Source: Psychromonas sp. B3M02
Lineage (GTDB): Bacteria > Pseudomonadota > Gammaproteobacteria > Enterobacterales > Psychromonadaceae
Assembly (NCBI RefSeq): GCF_003318165.1
Contig: NZ_QOCB01000140.1
Span: 1 to 53,027 of the forward strand
DNA length: 53,027 bases
Reading direction: 5' to 3'
The notes under the pieces are model-generated. The model did no database searches, was not told the origin of the DNA, and worked only from the letters and a program-made list of their open reading frames with translations. The number at the start of each line of letters is the position of its first letter. Position 1 is the first letter of the stretch. Both the position numbers and the translations under genes were made by a program. This document shows, piece by piece, positions 37,443 through 43,382 of the stretch.

Positions 37443-37847
37443 ATGTCGAGTATTTCTGGTAGCTGTTTATGTGGTAAAGTTTATTTTGAAAGTGACAATA
37501 ACTTTAATGAGTTTCATTTATGCCATTGTATTCAATGCCAAAAAGTAACTGGCTCAGCGCATGCGGCTAATATTTTCACTCAGCCTAGCAACATTAAATG
37601 GCTTAGTGGTGAAAGCCTAGTTAAGCGTTTTGATGTCCCTGGGCGAGCAATTTCAACTGCATTTTGTGAAGAATGTGGCGCTCCCGTTCCTTACCTTTCC
37701 CGTAATAAAAAAGATTTAATCATTCCTGTAGGTTGCCTTAATGGCGTACCTAATATCACTCCTCAAGATAATATTTTTTGTTCAGAAAAAGCCGAGTGGT
37801 ATGAGCAAGGCCTTAAGGCTAAATCCTTCGATAAATTCCCTGATTGA
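37443..37847 (+). CDS. GFA-family zinc protein (glutathione-dependent formaldehyde-activating type)
   Basis: 134 aa, DUF636/GFA fold. Cysteines in SCLCGKVYF, LCHCIQCQKVTGS and FCEECGAPV supply the two zinc sites of the family. The family includes a glutathione-formaldehyde adduct enzyme, but most members have no shown activity, so I give no reaction. GGAGG lies 5 nt before the ATG. Single gene. Confidence 0.9.
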   Translation: MSSISGSCLCGKVYFESDNNFNEFHLCHCIQCQKVTGSAHAANIFTQPSNIKWLSGESLVKRFDVPGRAISTAFCEECGAPVPYLSRNKKDLIIPVGCLNGVPNITPQDNIFCSEKAEWYEQGLKAKSFDKFPD

Positions 37848-38063: not shown

Positions 38064-38082
38064 GCTAATGATAATTATTATT
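38064..38082. promoter_or_regulatory. Fur box 1 upstream of Ni-SOD operon
   Basis: GCTAATGATAATTATTATT matches 16 of 19 positions of the Fur consensus GATAATGATAATCATTATC. With box 2, 48 bp downstream, it makes a typical iron-repressed promoter region. Confidence 0.75.
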
Positions 38083-38111
38083 AAATGTGTTGAATTTTCC
38101 AGTTATTTGTT

Positions 38112-38130
38112 GATAATGATTATTATTACT
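38112..38130. promoter_or_regulatory. Fur box 2 upstream of Ni-SOD operon
   Basis: GATAATGATTATTATTACT matches 15 of 19 positions of the Fur consensus. It ends 26 bp before the first gene of the operon (start 38157), so would cover the -10 or start-site region. Confidence 0.72.
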
Positions 38131-38156
38131 TTATTGTTGATTGAGTGAGGGAATCA

Positions 38157-38600
38157 ATGCATAGCTGGGAAATTTTAACTAAACGCGCAAATAAAGCTTA
38201 TTCAAGCAATGACTTCTCCGATGCAGTTTTTTTAAACCAACAAGCACTAAGCATGTTAGAAACCACTTTCCATGATAACTTTTTGCTTGATGCTGAATCC
38301 TATATATCAGCGGCTGCAGTGAGCTTCTTGAATCTTGCTGATGCCTATAACGCATTAAATAATTCATTATTAGCAAATAGCCACTATGAGAACGCCATTA
38401 ACTTTTTACAGGCGGTGCTTTCTCGTGCAGATGTTGACGATCGACACTATTGTTTAGTGATGCACACGGTCACCCGCATTCGCTGTGAATGGGAAATGTT
38501 TAATGAACAACAAGCTCAACAGCAATCTGTACAAGATCAAAAGTCGTTCAGCACATTTGTGAACCATGTGCCTTATGCTGAACATATCACCCACCACTAA
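38157..38600 (+). CDS. Unknown TPR-like helical protein, Ni-SOD operon
   Basis: 147 aa, with no signal peptide. I do not recognise a characterised family; the pattern resembles DUF2753-type proteins of vibrios. It is all helical and TPR-like: WEILTKRANKAYSSNDFSDAV, NLADAYNALNNSLLANSHYENAINFL show the A/Y/A spacing of TPR helices. The C-terminus is histidine-rich (HITHH). GAGGGA lies 6 nt before the ATG at 38157, the start I prefer over an in-frame GTG at 38145. First gene behind the Fur boxes, so possibly a partner in Ni-SOD assembly or nickel supply. That is inference from position. Confidence 0.75.
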   Translation: MHSWEILTKRANKAYSSNDFSDAVFLNQQALSMLETTFHDNFLLDAESYISAAAVSFLNLADAYNALNNSLLANSHYENAINFLQAVLSRADVDDRHYCLVMHTVTRIRCEWEMFNEQQAQQQSVQDQKSFSTFVNHVPYAEHITHH

Positions 38601-38649
38601 CTCTCTGCCTCTATAGAGGTCTTTTATGTTTACCAAAAAGGAAGTAAAG

Positions 38650-38862
38650 ATGAAAAAACTAGTAAAAAGCTCAATGGCGTTAAGTGCACTTATGGCTGTT
38701 AGCCAAGTCGCACAAGCTCACCCTGGACACGATCATTCTCATTGGGCAAGTAATTCTATTCATTTATTAACAGTGCTTGCTGTTGTAGCGGTTGTTGTCG
38801 TTGGTGTCGCTTATAAAAAAAGTCGTGGTAAAAATACAGCAAAAAAAGGAGAGCAGGCATGA
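38650..38862 (+). CDS. Small His-rich membrane protein, Ni-SOD operon
   Basis: 70 aa. N-terminal signal-peptide-like segment (about 1-24, ending SQVAQAHPG), then HPGHDHSHW, a compact His/Asp metal-binding motif, then one transmembrane helix (about 38-55) and a basic cytoplasmic tail ending GKNTAKKGEQA. AAGGAAG lies upstream of the ATG at 38650. If the signal is cleaved the His motif becomes the periplasmic N-terminus. Stop and sodN start overlap (ATGA). Function unknown; metal (nickel) binding at the membrane is an inference. Confidence 0.75.
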   Translation: MKKLVKSSMALSALMAVSQVAQAHPGHDHSHWASNSIHLLTVLAVVAVVVVGVAYKKSRGKNTAKKGEQA

Positions 38863-39362
38863 TTCATCGTCTTATTAAATCTATCGATAAAGCAGTTAAC
38901 TTTAAAACAGTAAAAGCACACTGTGATATTCCATGTAAAATTTATGATCCAGCAACAGCACAACTTGCTGCATTAAGCTGTGTACGCTTAATGGACCTAA
39001 TTAAAGAAGTAGAAGATAAAGGTACGTTAGGTGTCGCTGATTATGCTCAAGTAGCGCGTTTAGTAAGTGAAAAAGAGTCTGCAAGTACAGAAGTGAAGGA
39101 AGCCATACGTATCATCTGGGGTGATTACTTTAAAGCACCTCAGTTTGAACAACTACCTAATGCGCATCAACTAACGCATAGCATTATGTTACAAGCTTCA
39201 AAATGTAAGCAAAGCATTGCCCGTGAAGAAGGCGAAAAATTAGTTGAGCTAGTTAATGAATTTGCTGCTGCATTCTGGTTAACAAAAGGTGTGCAAACTT
39301 ACACGGCAGCTTGCCCTTACCCACCTGCATTACCAGTTGTTTACCCGGATCTAAAAGGGTAA
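38859..39362 (+). CDS. sodN: Nickel-containing superoxide dismutase
   Basis: Converts superoxide to oxygen and hydrogen peroxide at a Ni(II/III) site. It is 167 aa. A 20-residue leader ending KTVKA is followed by HCDIPCKIYDP, which matches the Ni-hook HCDLPCGVYDP: after cleavage His1, Cys2, Asp3, Pro5, Cys6 and Tyr9 form the active site. Gly7 is Lys here. The rest is the four-helix bundle of the family. The leader must be removed by the protease encoded next (sodX). Start overlaps the previous stop by 4 nt, so the small His-rich protein and SodN are translationally coupled. Confidence 0.96.
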   Translation: MIHRLIKSIDKAVNFKTVKAHCDIPCKIYDPATAQLAALSCVRLMDLIKEVEDKGTLGVADYAQVARLVSEKESASTEVKEAIRIIWGDYFKAPQFEQLPNAHQLTHSIMLQASKCKQSIAREEGEKLVELVNEFAAAFWLTKGVQTYTAACPYPPALPVVYPDLKG

Positions 39363-39393
39363 ATATGTTGCACTTTATTAAGTGGACAGAATA

Positions 39394-39687
39394 ATGCTCA
39401 GCGTGGTTAAAGTTAAAGGTATGAGCATGGCTCCTCGTTTAGTAGACGGGGACTATGTGTTTGTTAGTCGTTTTCACAGACGGTTAAAGGTAGGTCACCT
39501 TGTAGTGGTTAACCACGCTACTTATCAATCTATTATTAAACGAGTTCAAAAAATTAACGCTAATGGTTCTTTATGGTTAACCGGTGAGAATGACTCCAGT
39601 GTTCAGCCTGAAGAGATGGGCTGGGTGCCTCGTGCCCGAGTATTAGGTAAAGTTATTTTCTGTGTGTGCGCTATCCCTAAAAAATAA
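39394..39687 (+). CDS. sodX: Nickel-type SOD maturation protease
   Basis: Signal-peptidase-I-like (S26) protease that cleaves the SodN leader to expose His1. It is 97 aa from the ATG at 39394. Catalytic Ser11 in KGMSMAPRL and Lys49 in SIIKRV are at the expected S26 positions; GENDSSVQPEEMGWVP is also family-like. No membrane anchor is seen, as in other SodX. A GTG at 39382 in frame is possible but has no ribosome-binding site. Fourth gene of the Ni-SOD operon. Confidence 0.92.
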   Translation: MLSVVKVKGMSMAPRLVDGDYVFVSRFHRRLKVGHLVVVNHATYQSIIKRVQKINANGSLWLTGENDSSVQPEEMGWVPRARVLGKVIFCVCAIPKK

Positions 39688-40032
39688 AAGCATCGCTTAT
39701 TAAACCCTTATCTGCTTTTATTCTTCACAATCTCTTCAATTATTCTGCTAAATATTAGATTTAATTCAGTAAGTTGATCATTTATTTGATGTAATTGCTA
39801 TAATCATAGTTATATTATTTGTAATAAAGAAATCCAGCAGATCAACAAGTAGAACGGTGATAGGTGACAAGCTAGATCGTATTGATTCACTCTATAGAAA
39901 AGAAAAGCGATCTTTAGATTGCTCAAGGAAAAGTAATCAATCACAATGCACGACTATTGGCTTTTTGATAAATAAGAGCCTCTTTATTCGATATAATCGA
40001 TACCCTCTAAACAACTATAAATGGATGACATA
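39688..40032. other. Non-coding gap between sodX and thiB
   Basis: 345 bp with no gene. Just after sodX, AATAAAAGCA (39683-39692) pairs with TGCTTTTATT (39713-39722) as a possible weak terminator with a 20-nt loop. A perfect TATAAT at 39992-39997 is a likely -10 element for thiB, about 35 bp before its start; no good -35 is spaced properly. No TPP-riboswitch motif (such as CTGAGA or ACCTGA) can be found. Confidence 0.65.
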
Positions 40033-41034
40033 GTGAAAAAGAATTTTACAAGGTTATTAATCTCAGGGATTTTGATGTTAACACCGGCATTAGCTGCTGC
40101 CGAACAAGAAAAATTAACAATTTATACCTATAGCTCATTTGCTTCTGAATGGGGACCAGGCCCAAAGATTGAAGCATCATTTGAAGCCTTTTGTGATTGT
40201 GATTTAGAGTTTATTGCCTTAGATGATGGTGTGACAATTCTTAACCGTCTTCGCCTAGAAGGTGATAGTAGTGAAGCTGACATTTTACTGGGTTTAGATG
40301 ATAGCTTGATGGCAACCGCCAAAAAAACAGGTTTATTAGCAAAACATAATATTGATTTGATGCCTGTAAATGTTGAAGACGGCTGGAAGGACGATACCTT
40401 TGTTCCTTTTGATTACGGTTATTTTGCCTTTATTTACAACAGCGAAACATTAAAAAATCCTCCTAAGAGTATGAAAGAGTTAGTGGAAGAGCGAGATGAT
40501 CTGAAAGTGATTTATCAAGATCCACGTACCTCTACCCCTGGTTCAGGTTTAATGCTGTGGATGAAAACAATTTATGGTGACCAAGCGCCAGAGGCTTGGA
40601 AAAAGCTAGCTGAAAAAACCGTAACAGTGACCAAAGGCTGGTCTGAATCCTATAGCATGTTCTTAAAAGGTGAAGCAGACATGGTACTGTCGTACACCAC
40701 TTCTCCGGCATACCATATGATTGCCGAAGGTAAGCAACAATATGTTGCTGCTAGTTTTAGTGAAGGTCATTACCGTCAAGTGGAAGTGGCTGCTATTGTC
40801 AAAAATAGCAAACACAAGCAACTAGCCACTACCTTTATGAACTTTATGTTAAGTGATGCTTTCCAGTCTGAGATCCCTACAGGAAACTGGATGTACCCGG
40901 TGACTAATGTGTTATTACCTAATGAATTCGAACAGCTTACTTTGCCGGTTAAAATGCTAACCTGCGATAGTAATGAAGTAGATAAATACCGTAAAGCATG
41001 GACTAGAGAGTGGTTAACTTCTCTAACGGATTAA
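40033..41034 (+). CDS. thiB: Thiamine-binding periplasmic protein ThiB
   Basis: Periplasmic receptor of the ThiBPQ ABC importer; binds thiamine, TMP and TPP. It is 333 aa. Signal peptide (about 1-22, ending PALAAAEQ), then the ThiB start LTIYTYSSFASEWGPG, and TSTPGSGLMLW and SYTTSPAYH around the ligand site. I prefer the GTG at 40033, with GGATGA upstream and a normal signal peptide; an ATG at 40021 has no ribosome-binding site. First gene of thiB-thiP-thiQ. Confidence 0.95.
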   Translation: MKKNFTRLLISGILMLTPALAAAEQEKLTIYTYSSFASEWGPGPKIEASFEAFCDCDLEFIALDDGVTILNRLRLEGDSSEADILLGLDDSLMATAKKTGLLAKHNIDLMPVNVEDGWKDDTFVPFDYGYFAFIYNSETLKNPPKSMKELVEERDDLKVIYQDPRTSTPGSGLMLWMKTIYGDQAPEAWKKLAEKTVTVTKGWSESYSMFLKGEADMVLSYTTSPAYHMIAEGKQQYVAASFSEGHYRQVEVAAIVKNSKHKQLATTFMNFMLSDAFQSEIPTGNWMYPVTNVLLPNEFEQLTLPVKMLTCDSNEVDKYRKAWTREWLTSLTD

Positions 41035-41050
41035 TCGCCTAACAAAAGGT

Positions 41051-42679
41051 GTGAGAGTGATAATTAAGCAAATTAAAAAAGTTCAGATTCCTGGGTTATT
41101 GCTCTCACTTGGCATTTTTGTGTTTGTATCGATGGCAGTGGGGACGCTATTAACCCATTCATCTGATCTAGATATAAGTGTAGTCTGGTCAGACCCTTAC
41201 TATCAGCACATTACTAAATTCAGTTTATATCAGGCATTTTTGTCTACTCTGTTAAGTGTGCTGCTGGCTATTCCTATTAGTCATGCTCTCTCTAGACGTT
41301 CATTTTGGGGGAAAAGCTTTTTATTAAAGCTGTTAGCCACTACCTTAGTATTACCCGTGCTTGTCGCTGTTTTTGGTTTGCTTGCTATCTATGGTAACAG
41401 TGGTTTGATTGCTAACCTGTTTGCTTACTTTGAGATGAAATTACCCTTTTCTATTTTTGGGTTAAATGGCATTTTATTAGCGCATGTCTTTTTTAACCTT
41501 CCCTTTGCTTGCCGTCTTTTTTTACAAGGCTTAAGCTCGATTCCAGAGCAGCAGCATCAGTTAGCCAGTCATCTTGGTTTAAAACATTGGAATAAGTTTC
41601 GGTTTGTTGAGTGGCCTTATATTGCAGGGCAAATTCCTCACACAGCAGGGTTAATCTTTATGCTGTGTTTTACTAGCTTTGCCACTGTCATGGCATTAGG
41701 TGGTGGACCCAAATCGACCACTATTGAACTCGCTATCTATCAAGCAATTAAATTTGATTTTGATTTACAGGCAGGTGCTTTACTAGCGTTATGGCAAATC
41801 TGTTTATGTGCTATTTTAGCTATCTTAATTCAAAAGGTAGCGCGTCCGGCTTTATTAACAACCAACTTTCAAGGTATCGATAATACCTTCCCTCATGACA
41901 CGCTCTTGTCTAAGTGTTGGGATCTCTTTTGGATAGCAATGATCACCCTATTAGTGGTTCCTCCTTTAGCTATGGTGGTGTTCTCTGGTATTAATCATAA
42001 ATTATGGATGGTGTTTAACGACCTTGGTTTTTGGATGGCATTTAAGAACTCAATTGTGATTGCGGCTTTTGCTGGGATGATTGCGGTTATTTTTGCCTTC
42101 TTTATTCTGTTAGCCAGTCGCCAATGGCGTTTAGTAGGGTTAAACAATAGAGCTGATAAAGTAGAGATGTTAGCCACGATTATTTTAGTGACTCCAGGGT
42201 TGGTTATTAGCACTGGGTTGTTTTTACTATTACGAGAGTTCTCAAGTTTGTCTTCTCTCTCCTTATATATTGTGATTGCTGTGAATGCCTTGATGGCATT
42301 ACCTTTTACACTTAAAAGTTTAGCTGTGCCTATGTTACAAAATGCGCAAAAATATGAATTACTGTGCAATAGTTTAGGTATCTTTTCATTACATCGTATT
42401 TATTGGGTGGAGTGGAAATCATTAAAAAGGCCTATCTTGCAGGCTATGTCTCTGAGTTTTGTTCTATCCATTGGTGATTTAAGTGCGATAGCGCTATTTG
42501 GTAGCCATTCTTTTAGCACTTTACCTTTATATCTATTTCAACTTCTTGGGAGTTATCAGTTAGAATCTGCTGCCGTTGTTTCCTTGGTTTTATTATTATT
42601 AAGTGTGGGGACTTTTATGGTCATCGAAAGCCTATTTAAAGAAACACAACCCCATATAAAAAGAGCAAAGCATGATTGA
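41051..42679 (+). CDS. thiP: Thiamine ABC transporter permease ThiP
   Basis: Inner-membrane permease of ThiBPQ. It is 542 aa with two fused permease halves, each with an EAA-like loop (HLGLKHWNKFRFVEWPYI at about 174; NSLGIFSLHRIYWVEWKSL at about 440) and about twelve transmembrane segments in total, as expected for ThiP. Start GTG at 41051; a second GTG two codons downstream is equally possible. Overlaps thiQ by 8 nt. Confidence 0.95.
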   Translation: MRVIIKQIKKVQIPGLLLSLGIFVFVSMAVGTLLTHSSDLDISVVWSDPYYQHITKFSLYQAFLSTLLSVLLAIPISHALSRRSFWGKSFLLKLLATTLVLPVLVAVFGLLAIYGNSGLIANLFAYFEMKLPFSIFGLNGILLAHVFFNLPFACRLFLQGLSSIPEQQHQLASHLGLKHWNKFRFVEWPYIAGQIPHTAGLIFMLCFTSFATVMALGGGPKSTTIELAIYQAIKFDFDLQAGALLALWQICLCAILAILIQKVARPALLTTNFQGIDNTFPHDTLLSKCWDLFWIAMITLLVVPPLAMVVFSGINHKLWMVFNDLGFWMAFKNSIVIAAFAGMIAVIFAFFILLASRQWRLVGLNNRADKVEMLATIILVTPGLVISTGLFLLLREFSSLSSLSLYIVIAVNALMALPFTLKSLAVPMLQNAQKYELLCNSLGIFSLHRIYWVEWKSLKRPILQAMSLSFVLSIGDLSAIALFGSHSFSTLPLYLFQLLGSYQLESAAVVSLVLLLLSVGTFMVIESLFKETQPHIKRAKHD

Positions 42680-43382
42680 TTTTTCACAGGTCCAATATCA
42701 CTATCATCAACAAAACTTTACCTTTGACTTACAAGTTGAAGAAGGCAGTATCGTTGCTATATTAGGGCCAAGCGGTGCAGGGAAAAGCACTTTATTGAAT
42801 TTGTTGACGGGTTTTATTACCCCGAGCAAAGGGGATATTAAGATCCATGGAAAGTCGGTATTAAACCGTGCTCCACATCAACGTCCTTTGTCTATTTTAT
42901 TTCAAAATAATAACCTATTTAGCCACTTGTCTGCCTTTGATAATATTGGGCTAGGTTTACACCCTGGGTTAAAGCTCAATGAGAAACATAAGAGGCGTTT
43001 ACAAACTGCTGCATTACAAGTAGGGGTGGAGGATTTGTTAGACCGTCTGCCATCGCAGTTGTCTGGTGGTGAGCAACAACGTGTTGCATTGGCGCGCTGT
43101 TTTGTTCAACACAAGCCTATATTATTATTAGATGAGCCATTTTCAGCGTTAGACCCTGTATTACGTGTTTCTATGTTAGAGCATGTTAAATCTTTAGCTG
43201 ACTCTGAAGGCGTGACCATCTTAATGGTGACACACCATATTGGTGATGCTCGTGCAGTCGCATCTGATTTTATATTTGTTGACCAAGGTAAAGCGCTCGC
43301 AGTAGATAACATTGCCAACTTAACGACTCAGCACGCAAATAAACGTTTAAGATACTTTTTAAGTGCGGAAGAAAACCAATAA
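42672..43382 (+). CDS. thiQ: Thiamine ABC transporter ATPase ThiQ
   Basis: ATPase of ThiBPQ. It is 236 aa. Walker A GPSGAGKST is at about 33-41, signature LSGGEQQR, Walker B ILLLDEPFSALDP. ILFQNNNLFSHLS is a Q-loop typical of ThiQ. Last gene of the operon; the convergent cra gene ends 13 bp later, with no terminator room between them. Confidence 0.95.
   Translation: MIDFSQVQYHYHQQNFTFDLQVEEGSIVAILGPSGAGKSTLLNLLTGFITPSKGDIKIHGKSVLNRAPHQRPLSILFQNNNLFSHLSAFDNIGLGLHPGLKLNEKHKRRLQTAALQVGVEDLLDRLPSQLSGGEQQRVALARCFVQHKPILLLDEPFSALDPVLRVSMLEHVKSLADSEGVTILMVTHHIGDARAVASDFIFVDQGKALAVDNIANLTTQHANKRLRYFLSAEENQ

Follow-up and report, generated by a model that had tools for sequence, protein, structure and literature searches.

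A histidine-fronted membrane micro-protein beside sodN: a candidate nickel-supply component of a putatively Fur-linked nickel superoxide dismutase operon in Psychromonas

Introduction

Where does nickel superoxide dismutase (Ni-SOD) obtain its metal? In the passages available of the literature found, the source of the nickel is little explained: beyond the maturation peptidase SodX and a proposal for SodT in cyanobacteria, no donor is named. The question is raised by a stretch of 53,027 nucleotides from Psychromonas sp. B3M02 (contig NZ_QOCB01000140.1; this whole stretch is called the window), in which two genes, here named A and B, precede sodN and sodX behind two Fur-like boxes. An earlier note on this DNA proposed that the products of both genes bring or hold nickel for SodN, and that the operon is switched on when iron is low. 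This interpretation is partly supported: it is right in outline for B and wrong in kind for A. We consider it probable that this is a Fur-controlled Ni-SOD operon in which B collects nickel for SodN on the periplasmic side of the membrane, and in which A is a cytoplasmic tetratricopeptide repeat (TPR) protein of SOD operons.

What is new here is a micro-protein with a single helix and an N-terminal histidine: it occurs with SodN, in one case as a fusion, and it has counterparts in operons for urease and hydrogenase. As a nickel-supply part for several nickel enzymes of marine bacteria, it would be concrete and easy to test. No published description of B was found by title, abstract, or passages; subscription literature was poorly covered, and earlier surveys of Ni-SOD may mention it.

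The A-B-sodN-sodX operon

The operon was confirmed. On the forward strand of the window the order is two Fur-like boxes, A, B, sodN, and sodX, and the junctions are as tight as the earlier note had described them, the ATG of sodN overlapping the TGA of B. Against TIGR02753, whose cut-off is 90, SodN reaches 154.4 bits; it also matches PF09055 with an E-value of 7.6e-45, and carries the HCxxPC hook of Ni-SOD after a short leader, read here as KAHCDIPC. The adjoining SodX scores 67.1 bits against TIGR02754 (cut-off 63.25), and the sodN-sodX pair of the earlier note thus stands on both models. The 3.86-Mb genome has one sodN match, plus one match to a SOD of the Fe/Mn family. Among the best 80 of 582 relatives, from which very near records were possibly omitted, the closest named organism by SodN is Psychromonas sp. 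SP041 (89% identity).

Gene B beside sodN

The counts in this section come from three sets of genomes: 247 genomes of the order, of which 25 have sodN over cut-off; 303 genomes of the class, with 5 further genomes that have sodN over cut-off; and the best 80 of the 582 sodN relatives (the 80 named loci), 52 of which supply the counts for A. The sets overlap, since the named loci are partly the same genomes as those drawn from the order and class (e.g., L197/L007, L200/L002, and L221/L004).

Gene B is located directly upstream of sodN in all 25 sodN loci of the order, and strong matches to a B profile are found in exactly these 25 genomes, the best match elsewhere being 3.8e-7. The profile was built from the same 25 loci, which match by construction, so the informative part of this result is the 222 genomes without sodN. 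A B-type open reading frame (ORF) was seen by eye directly upstream of sodN in four of the five further genomes of the class; two of these ORFs are very divergent and come from small genomes (AHLTNSLFHLHQ and AHEGNATFHYH). The fifth genome has an ORF with a signal peptide and a helix that is devoid of the histidine motif, and no A-like ORF was noticed by eye at the five loci. Of the 80 named loci, 54 carry a B-type gene no more than 500 nt before sodN (in one, the two genes are fused), and 52 carry A. Both small families therefore recur with sodN in other genomes, a check that the earlier note had proposed. Viral contigs gave 12 pattern matches and no relatives of sodN.

In other named loci the ORF upstream of sodN is of a different kind: HupE-like in three of the 80 and a motif-less signal-plus-helix ORF in two. 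The HupE-like ORFs, from three Rhodospirillaceae loci, encode multi-helix proteins of 126-141 aa in the place of B. Against PF04955, two of them score below the cut-off of 23 bits (22.1 and 15.1 bits; E 1.2e-4 and 0.017), and the third gave no match. Three assignments in these counts departed from the automatic ones: L223, multi-helix and flagged by a filter, was moved from B-type to HupE-like, and L171 and L189 were entered as B-type by hand.

The design of B and its relatives

Gene B starts with a signal-like stretch that ends in ...AQA, followed by the motif and one hydrophobic stretch. The predicted mature protein of approximately 47 residues begins with H-x-G-H-D-H, has a further histidine at position 15 just before the single helix, and ends in a basic tail. 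In an alignment of 24 members, the histidines at mature positions 1, 4, 6, and 15 are invariant (24/24), and the histidine cluster is the most conserved part of the protein; the N-terminal histidine at the predicted signal-peptidase site is likewise kept in 24 of 24. L014, whose B is identical to that of L013, was omitted from alignment A2.

Does B belong to a known family? No Pfam or NCBIfam family was found over cut-off for the window's B. Its start resembles that of HupE/UreJ (PF04955), where the signal peptide is cut before an N-terminal histidine, the mature protein opens with AHxGH..., and a histidine enters the first helix; by sequence and predicted cleavage, B has the same signal peptide followed by an AHxGH-type N-terminus. 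Comparison of the B and HupE profiles gave 97.3% over 41 columns with the signal peptide included, and 47 B ORFs from the named loci match a HupE profile with E-values from 1.3e-8 to 6.1e-3, also with the signal peptide included. However, HupE/UreJ proteins have six helices and the full H-x5-D-H motif, whereas B has a single helix and not the full motif. PF04955 gave no match for the window's B, and for 24 B members it does not appear among the families shown (25 of a total of 26). Plain membership of HupE/UreJ was ruled out for B by its one helix and by the fact that no PF04955 match was seen.

The closest published idea to B is that of the anglerases, N-terminal-histidine domains attached to HupE/UreJ-2 permeases (PMC12537917, in the passages available). 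As predicted for B, signal peptidase exposes an N-terminal histidine in Ang-1, Ang-2, and DUF4198, with metal capture at the membrane and a link to HupE/UreJ-2. By contrast, according to the same passages, the anglerase domains reach about residue 175 before the permease linker, while the external part of B has approximately 15 residues. The position of UreH/SodT beside sodN is already known from the accessible parts of two papers (PMC4284471, PMC2667541). Cyanobacterial SodT, like B, is encoded by a nickel-supply membrane gene next to sodN (sodN-sodX), but it is a six-helix protein of the UreH family, and B is set apart from it by that description (PMC4284471, as excerpted).

A further look-alike is DUF6732 (PF20506), a small protein with a signal peptide, one helix, and an AHIGHxxxxAGHDHW-like motif. 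The match is weak, 14 of 24 B members being hit with a best E-value of 0.0023, and the context of DUF6732, unlike that of B, is cobalt and tetrapyrrole metabolism. DUF6732 is present in just three of 150 genomes, and at all three loci (L144-L146) it lies directly upstream of a gene of the CbiX/sirohydrochlorin-chelatase type (L146 over the CbiX cut-off, L145 below the model cut-offs, and L144 by eye).

B-like genes at urease and hydrogenase loci

In the 247 genomes of the order, the B profile has 15 short-frame matches (at most 131 aa, E at most 0.01) besides the 25 genes linked to sodN, and each of the 15 was read or placed. Seven lie directly after ureG, in the window's own genome and in G011, G176, G125, G076, G138, and G237, and UreG is over cut-off in all seven genomes. 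These genes encode proteins of 60-62 aa in urease operons of the window's genus (L106, L130-L133, L134, and L135); the copy of G076 (L132), with a protein identical to that of G125, was omitted from alignment A4. Two more are found in operons for NiFe-hydrogenase maturation and structural proteins, after hypE-hypA in G105 and between the hydrogenase large subunit and hypC in G214. HypA, HypC, and HypE are over cut-off in these operons; the large subunit is below the cut-offs of its models. HupE/UreJ genes also occur in urease and hydrogenase clusters, as far as the available passages report (PMC4284471, PMC2667541), and HupE/UreJ is found among the longer-frame matches of the B profile.

The six remaining matches are of mixed character. 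Three adjoin an A gene in genus g2 (one by coordinates only), and the two that were read have a decayed motif. Another is a rhodanese-like ORF and one lies near an fdx/ndk region (both by eye), and the last resembles an antisense artefact.

Since the look-alikes sit beside other nickel enzymes, B probably catches nickel. The nickel role that the earlier note had given to the 70-aa protein is supported by this context, that is, by the urease and hydrogenase look-alikes and by the HupE-like proteins in B's place.

Some further observations concern these genes. In g2 loci L071, L078, and L080, a decayed B-like ORF, no longer with its histidines, comes after the A gene, which lies approximately 10 kb away from sodN. 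By eye, the urease genes of the window's genome come after a urea ABC-transporter-like gene set (L260). The same genome has one HupE/UreJ gene (L129:141-719, + strand; G000:C41), near a contig end and on another contig than sodN, which is a candidate permease partner of B.

A B-SodN fusion

In L189 (CALIUX010000251.1, an uncultured member of the Pseudomonadales), a single ORF of 225 aa comprises a signal peptide, AHAGAEHVH, a helix, the SodN leader, and SodN. Codons 47-79 of this ORF, the region where SodN usually starts, contain no ATG, GTG, or TTG, and the histidine of HCDIPC is codon 80. A SodX-like frame was seen by eye after the fusion. The fusion would need little, because in the three relatives read (L240, L241, and L250) B and sodN are in the same frame, separated by one stop codon. 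In 244 genomes of that order, 20 match, 19 of these strongly, and no other fusion was found among them; the idea that fusion is a common arrangement was dropped on this count of one in 20.

Gene A is a SOD-operon gene

The earlier note called the 147-aa product of A TPR-like. The sequence lends this little weight (TPR_12, E 0.016), while the structure points the same way: the model is an all-helical repeat (pLDDT 88.3) with low confidence over the last dozen residues, and its best matches in the Protein Data Bank by Foldseek are TPR domains, at a best E-value of 0.01 and none at E of 0.001 or less.

The kinship of A is found elsewhere. The window's A scores 15.4 bits against DUF2753 (PF10952), below the cut-off of 28.7, and 10 of 17 A members match this family at E-values up to 1 (best 7.5e-6), TPR matches being weak as well. 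An A-like protein encoded upstream of a SOD gene is over the cut-off (L141, 31.6 bits; G210); the A of L164 reaches 25.8 bits (E 1.4e-5), below it. A is thus related, by sequence, to the DUF2753/OrfX protein of a Fur-linked Pseudomonas operon. In the parts of the papers available, a four-gene operon of Pseudomonas putida comprises a furA-associated gene, a fumarase, a DUF2753 protein, and sodA (PMC8360965), and the P. fluorescens Pf-5 operon fagA-fumC-orfX-sodA is responsive to iron limitation (PMC3377617). The earlier note knew of no described role for A or B. The DUF2753 gene is, however, a published member of that operon, although the passage concerned states no function for it (PMC8360965).

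Like A, OrfX is a small TPR-like protein encoded upstream of a SOD gene behind a Fur-type box, and the fumC neighbour was seen in two sodN loci: L164 has the order Fur-like box, small ORF, fumC, A, sodN, sodX, and L184 the order Fur-like box, fumC, A, B, sodN, sodX. The fumC genes of L164 and L184 match class II fumarase best, below the model's cut-off, and no fumC stands beside A in the window. The systems differ in that the partner SOD is of the nickel type here and sodA in Pseudomonas, and in that the window's A falls below the Pfam cut-off.

How closely is A tied to sodN? It lies upstream of B in 18 of the 25 sodN loci of the order (with a shorter frame in L019). In the other seven, all of genus g2, it lies approximately 10 kb away from sodN. 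Strong matches to A are also found in order genomes that have no sodN (G087, G093, G131, G144, G157, and G160), and A persists in g2 genomes without sodN. In G210, G200, and G067, an A-like gene directly precedes a gene for an Fe/Mn-family SOD; the SOD of G200 is over the Fe/Mn-SOD Pfam cut-offs and is nearest to Mn-SOD, below the cut-off of that model. The last residue of A is histidine in all 17 aligned members and in 38 of the 52 named loci with A. This histidine end is not tied to nickel, because the A proteins linked to Fe/Mn-SOD in L141 and L142 also end in LH.

From the A-like genes before Fe/Mn-family SOD and from loci L164 and L184, it follows that A is a SOD-operon gene and not nickel-specific. 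A as a nickel-specific partner was accordingly dropped, and the earlier note's assignment of A as a nickel protein gave way to one with DUF2753/OrfX: the gene appears to belong with that family, precedes Fe/Mn-family SOD in three of the genomes examined, and also stands alone. We read A as a SOD-operon gene that was kept in place as the enzyme switched from manganese to nickel. This would point to a metal swap within one Fur-linked operon, where fumC-orfX stands with Mn-SOD in some lineages and with Ni-SOD in others.

Iron control

Is the operon under iron control? The forward strand was scanned with a Fur consensus, GATAATGATAATCATTATC, which is nearly palindromic. The two boxes before the operon, which the earlier note had called Fur-like, match it at 16/19 and 15/19 and are the top two 19-mers of the window; when the intergenic stretch was resampled 2000 times with a first-order Markov model, 0.1% of the resamples reached 15/19. 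Of the 52 named loci with A, 29 have a box of at least 14/19 in the 200 nt before A; the same threshold is reached in 17 of 1734 control stretches, which were taken from these loci and are not only intergenic. Of 23 A genes located away from sodN, 17 have a box of at least 14 no more than 300 nt away; for random stretches the count is 89 of 3000. Four of the named loci with A, those of Alteromonas (L171, L175, L176, and L183), have no box of at least 14/19 near A; there, an extra gene precedes A, and boxes of 13-14/19 are located approximately 445-450 nt before A. Since the boxes are Fur-like and the Ni-SOD of a relative, Alteromonas macleodii (MASE_02360), is enriched under iron limitation in the published data available (PMC7190382), the operon is presumably made when iron is low.

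The extra gene (approximately 120 aa, with a CxKHxxWxY...-like start) was also seen upstream of A in L020, L021, and L172, all seven loci being from Alteromonas and relatives; its copy in L021 gave no Pfam match.

A proposed mechanism and its alternatives

How might these parts work together? When iron is low, the boxes would be released and A, B, SodN, and SodX would be produced. B would be exported to the inner membrane, where signal peptidase would cleave before its histidine and leave the N-terminal H-x-G-H-D-H...H cluster in the periplasm, the protein being anchored by one helix with its basic tail in the cytoplasm. The cluster may capture Ni(II) at the membrane, as has been proposed for N-terminal-histidine domains linked to HupE/UreJ-type permeases, and the captured nickel would raise the supply to pre-SodN held at the inner face. 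For this, B could pass the metal to a permease, of which the HupE of this genome is an example, or act directly with SodN. SodX would then trim the SodN leader to give His1-Cys2. A, a cytoplasmic TPR protein common to the fumC-orfX-sodA operon, most likely helps the folding or maturation of SOD, whichever the metal.

Several points weigh against this scheme. SodN has no export signal and the histidine cluster of B is predicted to be periplasmic, which leaves a transport step as a gap. Ni-SOD does not require B everywhere: of the 80 named loci, 15 are without both A and B, and six have A only. In L147/L165 and L161 the signal-plus-helix ORF has no histidine motif. Two of the B profile matches, the short B-like gene of G243 and the rhodanese-like one of G041, have no recognised nickel enzyme alongside. 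The likeness to HupE leans on the signal peptide, as mature B alone gives 83.7% over 18 columns; B has one helix and not the full H-x5-D-H motif, and its first histidine alone aligns. The fusion, which is single and comes from one metagenome-assembled genome, could be an oddity of assembly, and alternative starts are possible at ATG38 and GTG46, which are in frame, inside the helix, and have no obvious ribosome site. As for iron, 23 of the 52 A loci have no box of 14/19 within 200 nt, and 33 of the 52 reach the 5% level against composition-matched resampling.

Could B serve SodN in some way other than nickel supply? It might instead keep pre-SodN and SodX at the inner face, as a membrane anchor or a platform for assembly, with histidines that serve another metal or stability. 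The fusion to the SodN leader in L189, the shared frame with one stop in L240, L241, and L250, and the motif-less signal-plus-helix partners of L147, L161, and L165 all speak for such a role, which we nevertheless regard as unlikely: the histidine cluster is the most conserved part of B, and the same design occurs with genes of urease and hydrogenase, where there is no SodN leader. A function in nickel sensing or export, which shields the cell or the thiolates of SodN when metal is in excess, would fit the general habit of histidine-rich periplasmic proteins, which often buffer metals, and the putative heavy-metal exporter of the ArsP_2 type downstream in one locus (L004). This appears improbable: supply is favoured by Fur-type control, by the placement with several nickel enzymes, and by the substitution of B with HupE-like proteins, whose family is known for nickel import.

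The earlier idea that A and B are both nickel chaperones of SodN, with nickel carried by the C-terminal histidine tail of A, could draw on the constancy of that last histidine and on the low-confidence, probably disordered tail of the model. It has a slim chance at best, given that A-like genes precede Fe/Mn-family SOD and occur in genomes without sodN, that A is related to DUF2753/OrfX of Mn-SOD operons, and that the SOD-linked A proteins of L141 and L142 have the same LH end. There is also a much bolder form of the nickel-supply scheme, to which we give very little credence. Here, B and its urease and hydrogenase counterparts would all belong to a single class of nickel micro-proteins, each with one helix and dedicated to operons of nickel enzymes, and six B helices under a SodN hexamer would make a port that passes periplasmic nickel to the SodN hooks with no separate permease or cytoplasmic chaperone. 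The idea arises because Ni-SOD is a hexamer and a B-SodN fusion would force six helices together.

Table 1. Coordinates of the operon features in the window and of B-like genes at other loci
Feature	Position	Strand	Description
Fur-like box 1	38064-38082	.	16/19 match to GATAATGATAATCATTATC; best 19-mer of the window; boxes precede A in other genomes too
Fur-like box 2	38112-38130	.	15/19 match; second-best 19-mer of the window
Gene A	38157-38600	+	147 aa from ATG; TPR/DUF2753-related (OrfX-like); low-confidence tail; end ...HITHH
Gene B	38650-38862	+	micro-protein of 70 aa with a signal peptide; mature protein predicted to start HPGHDHSHW...H; a single membrane helix; basic tail at the C-terminus
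sodN	38859-39362	+	167-aa nickel superoxide dismutase precursor; leader stops before HCDIPC; TIGR02753, PF09055
sodX	39394-39687	+	SodN maturation peptidase, 97 aa (101 aa with GTG 39382); TIGR02754
B-like gene of the window's own genome	L134:3050-3238 (G000:C89)	+	directly downstream of ureG
B-like gene, hydrogenase operon	L137:3096-3299	-	
B-like gene, hydrogenase operon	L138:2848-3075	+	

Neighbouring genes and other sodN loci

A gene for a GFA-domain protein (37443-37847) lies upstream of the operon and thiamine-type ABC transporter genes (40021-43382, thiB over cut-off) lie downstream; both apparently stand outside it. In other genomes, the gene after sodX encodes a substrate-binding protein of a metal ABC transporter (L002, L008, L010-L014, and L016; of the Mn/Zn type by profile in L011, by eye in the others) or, in L004, a putative metal exporter (ArsP_2). 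Locus L030 (G110), from the window's genus, has a fragment from the 3' end of sodN with a sodX-like piece after it, and looks like a decayed Ni-SOD locus. In L027, L028, L029, and L152, no A- or B-like gene was noticed around the genes for SodN-like proteins, the loci being short; these proteins have a predicted signal peptide that ends directly before HCQIPCGIYDD.

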